Origin: Tenacibaculum dicentrarchi
GTDB lineage: Bacteria > Bacteroidota > Bacteroidia > Flavobacteriales > Flavobacteriaceae
Length of the DNA stretch: 64,000 nt
NCBI RefSeq assembly: GCF_900239345.1
Contig: NZ_OESZ01000043.1
Span: 155,297 to 219,296, forward strand
Direction of reading: 5' to 3'
Part shown: in pieces, positions 6,481-64,000 of the stretch
Position numbering within the stretch: the first letter of the stretch is position 1
Layout: each line of letters starts with the position of its first letter
Made by a program: the position numbers and the translations under genes
Notes under the pieces: model-generated
Databases searched by the model: none
What the model saw: only the letters and a program-made list of their open reading frames with translations
Told to the model about the DNA's origin: nothing

Positions 6481-6556
6481 GAAGCTATTTCCTGCTTTCG
6501 GCTATATCTTTTTTTCATTCTTCAAAAAAGGATGCCGCCTCTATCAGGGCTAAAAA
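6481..6556 (+). repeat. Dispersed structured repeat, copy E (degenerate)
   Basis: Shares both ends with the other copies: GAAGCTATTTCCTGCTTTC at the left and ATCAGGGCTAAA at the right. The centre is divergent and shorter. The CCTG/CAGG pair matches copy D, whereas copies A-C have CCCG/CGGG. It lies between rpoD and rpe. Confidence 0.65.
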
Positions 6557-37710: not shown

Positions 37711-37810
37711 AGAAGTTTAGCCCTGATTGAACGGCTTGTTTGAGCTCTTTTTTATTTTTCTTTTCGAAAAAATAAAAAAAGCGAGTAGTGAAAGCAGGAA
37801 ATAGCTTCTA
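37711..37810 (-). repeat. Dispersed structured repeat, copy D (minus orientation)
   Basis: Read on the minus strand it has the family order: GAAGCTATTTCCTGCTTTC, ACTCGCTTTTTTTATTTTT, a loop, AAAAATAAAAAAGAGCTC, AAACAA, then AATCAGGGCTAAACTTC. Stems CCTG/CAGG and TTTTTATTTTT/AAAAATAAAAA. It separates the ketoacyl synthase gene from bioB. Confidence 0.85.
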
Positions 37811-41320: not shown

Positions 41321-41407
41321 GGAGCTACTCCCGCTTTCCGCACTCGCTTTTTTTGAAAAAAATCAAAAAAGAGCTCAAACAAATGCTACAATCGGGGCTA
41401 GAAATTA
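41321..41407 (+). repeat. Dispersed structured repeat, copy A
   Basis: Left arm GGAGCTACTCCCGCTTTCCG, A/T hairpin TTTTTTGA/TCAAAAAA, GAGCTCAAACAA, right arm AATCGGGGCTAG. It lies between divergent panB and the O-methyltransferase gene. Confidence 0.85.
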
Positions 41408-50471: not shown

Positions 50472-50545
50472 AGCCTAATTTTTAATGCAAAATACCTTTT
50501 TAAAGCACATTAAACAAGATAATTAAAAGAGTAATAAAAATATTT

Positions 50546-50641
50546 TGAAGCAATTTCCCGCTTTCCGCACTCGCTTTTTTTGTTTTTTAAAAAGAAAAAC
50601 AAAAAAGAGCTCAAACAATTGCTTCAATCGGGGCTAGGCAT
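50546..50641 (+). repeat. Dispersed structured repeat, copy B
   Basis: GAAGCAATTTCCCGCTTTCC at the left, GTTTTT/AAAAAC inner hairpin arms, GAGCTCAAACAA, and AATCGGGGCTAGGC at the right. It lies in the 440-bp gap 50472-50911 that also holds the palindromic pair at 50781-50863; no gene is seen in this gap. Confidence 0.88.
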
Positions 50642-50780
50642 TTGTACTTTTTTTGATATTTAGAAAAAACTATTTACATCCTACTTTAAAAAGATGAGAT
50701 TTTAAAATAGCTATCAAATAAAAGTCAGAGCCTATTTAAGGTTTTATTTAAAAACATTTTATAGCTAAAAAACCGAATCC

Positions 50781-50863
50781 GTCAAACTGAATTTATTTCA
50801 GTTTCGCATCCTGATTTGCCGTATTTCTTTACTTTATGCGATGCTGAAATAAATTCAGCATGA
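50781..50863. repeat. Inverted pair of CTGAATTTATTTCAG palindromes
   Basis: Two palindromes, AAACTGAA/TTCAGTTT (50784-50803) and ATGCTGAA/TTCAGCAT (50841-50861), are themselves inverted copies of one roughly 30-bp unit (GTCA..CTGAATTTATTTCAG..TCGCATC) around a spacer of about 23 bp. The same unit recurs singly at 61161 and 63660. Confidence 0.8.
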
Positions 50864-50911
50864 CATTTAGATAGTAAAAAAATACTTTAGATAAAATTTA
50901 AAACACGAAAC

Positions 50912-63469: not shown

Positions 63470-63558
63470 AGAAGCAATTTCCCGCTTTCCGCACTCGCTT
63501 TTTTTTGAAGAAAAATCAAAAAAAGAGCTCAAACAAAGCTTCAATCGGGGCTAGGCAT
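63470..63558 (+). repeat. Dispersed structured repeat, copy C
   Basis: GAAGCAATTTCCCGCTTTCC, inner hairpin TTTTTTTGA/TCAAAAAAA, GAGCTCAAACAA, AATCGGGGCTAGGC. Very close to copy B. Lies in the gene-free stretch 63355-63878; 63559-63659 there shows nothing else. Confidence 0.88.
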
Positions 63559-63872: not shown

Positions 63873-63878
63873 CAAAGA

Positions 63879-63984
63879 AAGGCAACGACCTACTCTCCCA
63901 CCATTGGCAGTACCATCGGCGCAAATGGGCTTAACTTCTCTGTTCGGGATGGAAAGAGGTGAGCCCCATTGCGATAATCACCTT
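63879..63984 (-). rRNA. rrf: 5S ribosomal RNA
   Basis: The minus strand reads GGTGATTATCGCAATGGGGC at the 5' side, then the conserved CATCCCGAACAGAGAAG, GCGCCGATGGTACTGC and GGGAGAGTAGGTCGTTGCC at the 3' side; ends pair (AAGG..CCTT). About 106 nt. The operon continues off the right edge toward 23S and 16S. Exact ends uncertain by a few bases. Confidence 0.95.
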
Positions 63985-64000
63985 AAATCGTTTCAGTATA

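Follow-up and report, generated by a model that had tools for sequence, protein, structure and literature searches.

Five dispersed repeats in a 64,000-nt stretch of the Tenacibaculum dicentrarchi genome (contig NZ_OESZ01000043.1, positions 155,297 to 219,296; hereafter the window) are members of the Rfam family Flavo-1 (RF01705, published 2010). As a family Flavo-1 was already known, and what is likely new here is its reading as a DNA element. We put it at slightly under an even chance that Flavo-1 is not an RNA but a non-coding DNA element that forms a hairpin and spreads between genes. We lean towards DNA because G-U pairs are nearly absent from its covarying stems and because its copies in T. 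dicentrarchi have no bias with respect to the strand of the neighbouring genes. Rfam gives RF01705 the type Gene; sRNA, and in the available text of the 2010 report Flavo-1 is listed as probably RNA and not cis-regulatory (PMC2864571). We found no proposal of a DNA element in openly available texts that name Flavo-1 or RF01705.

All five repeats of the first-pass annotation were located where it had placed them, with copy B inverted as it had described, and their RF01705 scores (cmscan) are above chance. Three of them exceed the gathering cut-off of the model, 42 bits; copies B and C lie just under it, yet they align with the other three. The copies and their neighbours are as follows.

6481..6556, minus strand: copy A, RF01705 58.0 bits; older form with a GGATGCC...TATATC middle; sigma-70 gene and ribulose-phosphate 3-epimerase gene on either side (Pfam)
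37711..37810, plus strand: copy B, RF01705 38.5 bits; inverted relative to the other four (alignment); ketoacyl-synthase stop 16 nt before it, BATS/radical-SAM ORF about 50 nt after it (Pfam)
41321..41407, minus strand: copy C, RF01705 40.0 bits (alignment); flanked by divergent ORFs
50541..50646, minus strand: copy D, RF01705 47.6 bits; upstream of a UvrD-like helicase gene
63470..63558, minus strand: copy E, RF01705 49.4 bits; beta-helix protein gene on one side, convergent 5S rRNA on the other (Pfam, Rfam)
63877-63985, minus strand: 5S rRNA near copy E (Rfam match)

The intergenic position claimed for all five copies agrees with the ORF list, in which co-directional ORFs flank A and D and divergent ones flank C, and with the Rfam 5S match. 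Copy A sits directly behind the T-tract belonging to an intrinsic-terminator-like hairpin, and the core of copy D, GAAGC...GGGCTA, occupies 50547-50636 with a T-rich border before it. A second dispersed palindromic repeat, of the CTGAATTTATTTCAG ... CTGAAATAAATTCAG type, adjoins copy D at window positions 50775-50865, and stretches resembling it occur in T. piscium gaps. The four motifs said to be common to all five copies hold as an outline of the alignment, except that two of the four are absent from copy A, whose middle reads TATATC...GGATGCC where the other copies have ACTCGC...GAGCTCAAACAA; copy C starts with GGAGCTA-CTCCCGC. The outer stem does change with its pairing kept, as claimed, but its types had been assigned to the copies the wrong way round: in the alignment, copies A and B carry CCTG/CAGG, and copies C, D, and E carry CCCG/CGGG.

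Flavo-1 is far more abundant than these five copies. The 2.8-Mb draft genome of T. dicentrarchi contains at least 122 RF01705 matches, 111 of them over the cut-off; scoring covered 150 of 837 first-look candidates, and 122 may thus be a lower bound. A profile seeded with the five window copies alone retrieved 125 copies (66 on the plus and 59 on the minus strand) in the covered stretches of the same genome. Most of these copies form a lineage-rich subfamily with a GAGCTC...CTCGC middle in place of GGATGCC...TATATC. These copies belong to the Rfam family by the covariance model and have the same pairing scheme; they differ from the Rfam description in the predominance of this subfamily and in a DNA-like pairing set against the sRNA type. 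In a draw of 40 genomes from the genus group, Flavo-1 was matched in 32 and not detected in eight, with at least 89 matches each in T. dicentrarchi and T. finnmarkense G077; in a draw of 60 genomes from the family it was matched in 38 and not detected in 22. Copy number differs greatly between congeners: 127 in T. finnmarkense, 58 in T. piscium, 26 in T. soleae, 24 in T. haliotis, 12 in strain AHE14PA, 10 in T. ovolyticum, one in T. lutimaris, and none in T. pelagium. One 100-base query gave no Flavo-1 match in either the plasmid or the phage collection.

The pairing scheme of Flavo-1, which is about 75-145 nt long, is as in Rfam: three outer pairs, an A.G mismatch, two further pairs, and a purine-rich 3x3 loop, followed inwards by a two-pair R-Y step, an internal loop, and a variable inner hairpin. 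Two forms can be told apart, for which we coined the labels class I (GAAGC ... GGGCTA) and class II (GGGCGTT ... CCCTAACGC); class II has an extra small hairpin in its 5′ part (seen in L041, L309, L310, and alignment A4) and is the best match in several low-copy genomes. Over 38 diverse rows, the 15 named pairs amount to 570 cells; pairing is kept in 99.3% of these, a level reached in none of 500 shuffles, and 71 cells are double-changed against 19.2 +/- 3.7 in the shuffles. Shifting the partner by one to three columns lowers the pairing to 42-64%. One of these rows (L053) stood on the wrong strand and was righted in alignment A4. The compensatory change that the first-pass annotation had read from five copies thus extends well beyond them, and a dispersed structured family is borne out by this covariation together with the 122 matches in the genome. 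The outcome that the annotation had named as refuting it, a covariance search retrieving the five copies and nothing else, did not occur.

The kind of pairs by which the structure is kept is the main evidence for DNA. RNAs tolerate G-U pairs. In alignment A4, which consists of 38 of 59 one-per-genome loci plus the five window copies (43 rows) and leaves out mainly loci with a long inner hairpin, only three of 705 standard-pair cells of Flavo-1 are G-U. The 6S-Flavo RNA of the same genus group, taken as a control (28 of 30 loci used, 28 genomes), has 44 wobbles in 500 cells (Fisher p 2e-14), and at pairs with at least one double change the ratio of wobble to double-changed cells is 3:106 in Flavo-1 vs 10:54 in 6S-Flavo (p 0.005); the Fisher tests treat rows as independent, and the rows share phylogeny. 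The small SRP RNA of the same group (29 of 30 loci used) has 125 wobbles in 951 cells, summed from the table, and is too conserved for double-change statistics, though rich in wobbles. Since the rows of A4 had been chosen by a structure-aware score, we repeated the count on 81 copies picked through conserved letters outside four pairs, where 317 of 324 cells were Watson-Crick, one was a wobble, and six were other combinations. One pair among these copies is A-T in 39, G-C in 39, and A-C in one. Of the 119 T. dicentrarchi copies that could be read at one inner pair, 79 have T-A and 40 have C-G, with zero intermediates, and the state of this pair is swapped at 3 of 23 orthologous sites.

Covariation that is nearly free of wobbles fits selection on a Watson-Crick DNA stem. 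Alternatively, gene conversion or template-switch repair that swaps both arms together could keep the wobble count low. Predicted single-strand folds, whether of RNA or of DNA, mostly fail to recover the covarying 2-3 bp stems. A pseudoknot between GAAGC and GCTTC, judged by eye on the aligned copies, was dropped because copies with GGAGC retain GCTTC or GCTAC. That the change conserves structure, as the first-pass annotation had argued, and does not reflect decay of an IS is supported by the 38-row covariation and by the 81 anchor-picked copies. The same annotation had allowed for either an RNA or a palindrome-recognised DNA element, and between these two the scarcity of G-U pairs and the unbiased orientation in this genome lean towards DNA.

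Comparison of orthologous sites indicates that Flavo-1 copies are stable between sister species and patchy at a greater distance. Of 31 syntenic rows against T. finnmarkense in the covered stretches, one (C29_48011) was removed as non-orthologous, and 29 of the 30 remaining T. dicentrarchi sites are also filled in T. finnmarkense; the sites are therefore old, and the comparison gives no hint that the element is active at present. A counterpart in T. dicentrarchi is missing for three T. finnmarkense copies, and one T. dicentrarchi copy has none in T. finnmarkense; 5 of 5 sites are filled in both of two T. finnmarkense genomes compared. In T. piscium, by comparison, the element is missing at 20 of 41 comparable sites; three of these 20 empty rows, with gaps longer than 600 nt, fall outside the inspected set, and one (C10_131095) keeps an apparent 10-nt remnant of the left end. 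Copy D is present in both T. finnmarkense loci, where the counterpart of its UvrD-like neighbour is 90% identical; the same helicase gene lacks an upstream copy D in T. piscium, AHE14PA, T. haliotis, T. ovolyticum, and T. soleae, and a short gap separates the same two genes in three of these, AHE14PA, T. haliotis, and T. soleae. At one T. piscium locus (L152) the match to the window breaks beside copy B, and Flavo-1 is present there too. The empty sites, which lie in AT-rich, indel-rich DNA and often contain other inserted repeats, gave no clean junction or target duplication. Judged from the pattern of presence and absence, gain would be the simpler reading.

The arms of the element are better conserved than its surroundings. 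At 22 orthologous sites (eight rows and the empty row having been dropped), T. dicentrarchi and T. finnmarkense share 98.1% and 97.5% identity in the two arms and 89.1% and 79.1% in the two flanks. Arm identity between different sites, 95.7%, is nearly as high as the 97.9% between orthologous ones. The inner hairpin, compared at 21 sites, is identical at 11 and of a different type at four (C44_5495, C44_151167, C16_59313, and C10_67736). These comparisons suggest that copies may exchange their inner hairpins by recombination.

Flavo-1 is enriched in gaps between convergent genes. The 112 placeable copies of T. dicentrarchi fall into 41 convergent, 55 co-directional, and 16 divergent gaps (of the 125 copies, 12 lie at stretch ends and one within an ORF call), compared with 32 convergent, 157 co-directional, and 54 divergent among 243 background gaps of at least 100 nt in the T. 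finnmarkense stretches. Between co-directional genes, 30 copies lie on the same strand as the genes and 25 on the opposite one. A column profile of 116 full copies gives TTWTTW|GAAGC as the left border and GGGCTA as the right border. Where the GAAGC side faces a stop, 10 of 71 copies abut the T-tract of an intrinsic terminator; where it faces a start, none of 41 does so, and on the other side of the element the counts are 0/66 and 0/46. In those 10 copies the terminator hairpin and its T-run precede Flavo-1 as a separate hairpin.

Orientation is less even in other genomes. Among best-match loci, 44 of the 54 with both neighbours are co-directional, several being the same site across genomes, and of these 24 class I elements are in the same orientation as the genes and one is opposite, with seven same and 12 opposite for class II; the class I elements often lie 5-30 nt behind a stop. 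In genome G088, the 24 placeable copies of both classes among the first 25 of 61 in coordinate order comprise 13 same, four opposite, seven convergent, and no divergent. Mobile elements that use single-stranded DNA of the lagging strand, such as those of the IS200/IS605 type, are expected to show a strand bias between replichores; with the origin placed at dnaA, the counts for two genomes are 31/61 and 28/59, with no evident bias, and a permutation with the origin left free gives p 0.10 and 0.02. In genome G060, Flavo-1 strands fall into two large domains (free-origin p 0.02) that do not match the dnaA origin. Spacing along the genome is uneven (CV 1.30 and 1.12 vs 0.97-0.98 for random placement). 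Among the 25 neighbour families listed of 129 (111 neighbour proteins) there is no transposase; the commonest, with five members each, are glyoxalase-type and homogentisate dioxygenase families. The sigma-70 and ribulose-phosphate epimerase genes at copy A also flank the best-match Flavo-1 in L074, L076, and L082, and because this site recurs across genomes, a few Flavo-1 sites must be old and shared.

A search for a mobiliser centred on Y1 transposases, with which the first-pass annotation had suggested a link. One such gene was detected in T. dicentrarchi, with a score of 20.5 bits (Pfam detects RAYTs weakly), and it is bounded by GTAG-type repeats of its own, as is the gene of T. finnmarkense G077 by another palindrome. 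The latter gene occupies a gap that has no such gene in T. dicentrarchi (L092).

L031:1111-1695, contig C10 near 28 kb: RAYT-like Y1 gene of T. dicentrarchi; AGACGCGATAAATCGCGTCT-type repeats on both sides and one inside the gene
L309:1297-1866, minus strand: Y1 gene of T. finnmarkense G077; CTCACAGGTTTT/AAAACCTGTGAG palindrome adjoining

Of 45 Y1 locus records scanned, five (three distinct loci) contain Flavo-1, in no case directly bounding the Y1 gene, and the column profile of the 116 full copies has no GTAG/GGAG tetranucleotide at the foot of the hairpin. Nor was a gene found between split arms in about 4 Mb scanned: 199 of 226 left-arm matches have a right arm within 150 nt, and the remaining 27 mostly resemble chance matches, two of them being truncated at the end of a locus.

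Flavo-1 resembles several known systems in part. Like REP/BIME sequences with their RAYT (TnpA_REP), it is short, structured, intergenic, of high copy number, and patchy between relatives; unlike them, it has no GTAG-type tetranucleotide or associated Y1 gene, and in place of a simple hairpin it is a nested stem with internal loops. Like MITEs, it is non-coding and dispersed and shows bursts of copy number, but it has no gene-bearing parent in the 4 Mb scanned, its class I lacks a plain terminal inverted repeat, and no target duplication could be resolved at the empty sites in AT-rich DNA. The integron attC site has the consensus RYYYAAC...GTTRRRY. Flavo-1 is comparable with it in the way it might work only: both are stems with unpaired bases and a variable terminal loop in which the sequence changes and the structure is kept, and on reading the Flavo-1 copies the RYYYAAC...GTTRRRY arrangement was not seen.

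The main rival to DNA is that Flavo-1 is a structured RNA, either the sRNA of Rfam or a cis element in mRNA 3′ regions transcribed from the strand opposite to that of Rfam, which we regard as doubtful while still a serious candidate. The strong covariation is what such an RNA would give, and so are arms conserved above their flanks, sites that recur across genomes (sigma-70/epimerase), and the agreement with gene orientation in class I best-match loci (24 to 1) and in G088 (13 to 4); the available text of Weinberg et al. (2010; PMC2864571) rates the family ‘y’, probably RNA. The near absence of G-U pairs speaks against it, as do the unbiased orientation in T. dicentrarchi and in class II best-match loci (7 to 12) and a copy number that runs from 0 to 127 among congeners, and the Rfam strand would then be mostly antisense to genes. 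In F. psychrophilum, according to the accessible part of one report, Flavo-1 matches coincide with several 5′ transcribed regions, sense or antisense ‘indistinctly’, and many lie outside transcribed regions (PMC9723704). It is unlikely that Flavo-1 is a site in the chromosomal DNA that serves the host, for instance as a cruciform bound by a protein and protecting or separating the ends of genes, and that was multiplied by selection and homogenised by recombination without transposing. Such a site would account for the retention of 29/30 sites in the sister species, the conserved arms, the enrichment in convergent gaps, and a mobiliser not being found; against it stand the genomes with no copy detected (8/40 in the genus group and 22/60 in the family), which make Flavo-1 dispensable, the uneven spacing (CV 1.30 and 1.12 against 0.97-0.98), and the roughly half of comparable sites that are empty in T. 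piscium (20/41).

Movement by a REP-associated tyrosine (Y1/RAYT) transposase, which would make Flavo-1 a REP-type repeat, is improbable. A short palindrome-like intergenic repeat in high copy number is what such an enzyme mobilises, the available text on Y1 transposases describes a Bacteroidetes-specific subclass 2.6 flanked by atypical structures without GTAG (PMC6006769), and relatives of the T. finnmarkense Y1 gene correlate with Flavo-1 counts at Spearman 0.30 (p 0.06, 40 genomes). But the Y1 genes of T. dicentrarchi and T. finnmarkense are bounded by other repeats, the counts of all Y1 genes do not correlate with Flavo-1 counts over the same number of genomes (Spearman 0.06, p 0.70), a Y1 gene went undetected in 4 of the 11 genomes that have 40 or more copies, and 5 of the 8 without Flavo-1 carry one; the suggested link thus found no support. 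That Flavo-1 is a family of intrinsic transcription terminators is highly improbable: placement at gene ends and the adjoining T-tracts agree with termination, but divergent genes flank 16 of 112 copies, orientation is unbiased, and the terminators seen are separate hairpins ahead of the element.

Under the DNA reading of Flavo-1, the element would fold as a single-stranded DNA hairpin, so that the folded form would be DNA and not RNA. A putative enzyme would read the folded Flavo-1 and spread copies of it, and these would tend to settle on T-rich tracts at gene 3′ ends. Insertion, rather than loss in relatives, would have made the dispersed copies, and recombination between them would swap the inner hairpin. 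A more specific version, which we consider rather unlikely as a whole, is that Flavo-1 may be the folded single-stranded substrate of a putative recombinase that acts independently of the Y1/HUH REP transposases, recognises a strictly Watson-Crick hairpin marked by bulges, targets T-tracts behind genes, and allows exchange of the inner hairpin.

RNA catalogues list many families that, like Flavo-1, are known from covariation alone. If wobble-free covariation marks DNA, catalogues of structured RNA may contain other elements that act at the level of DNA, and the share of G-U at covarying pairs, compared with that of RNAs from the same genomes, could sort DNA families from RNA families. If true, the DNA reading of Flavo-1 points to an unrecognised mobile element that shapes gene ends in the Flavobacteriaceae.
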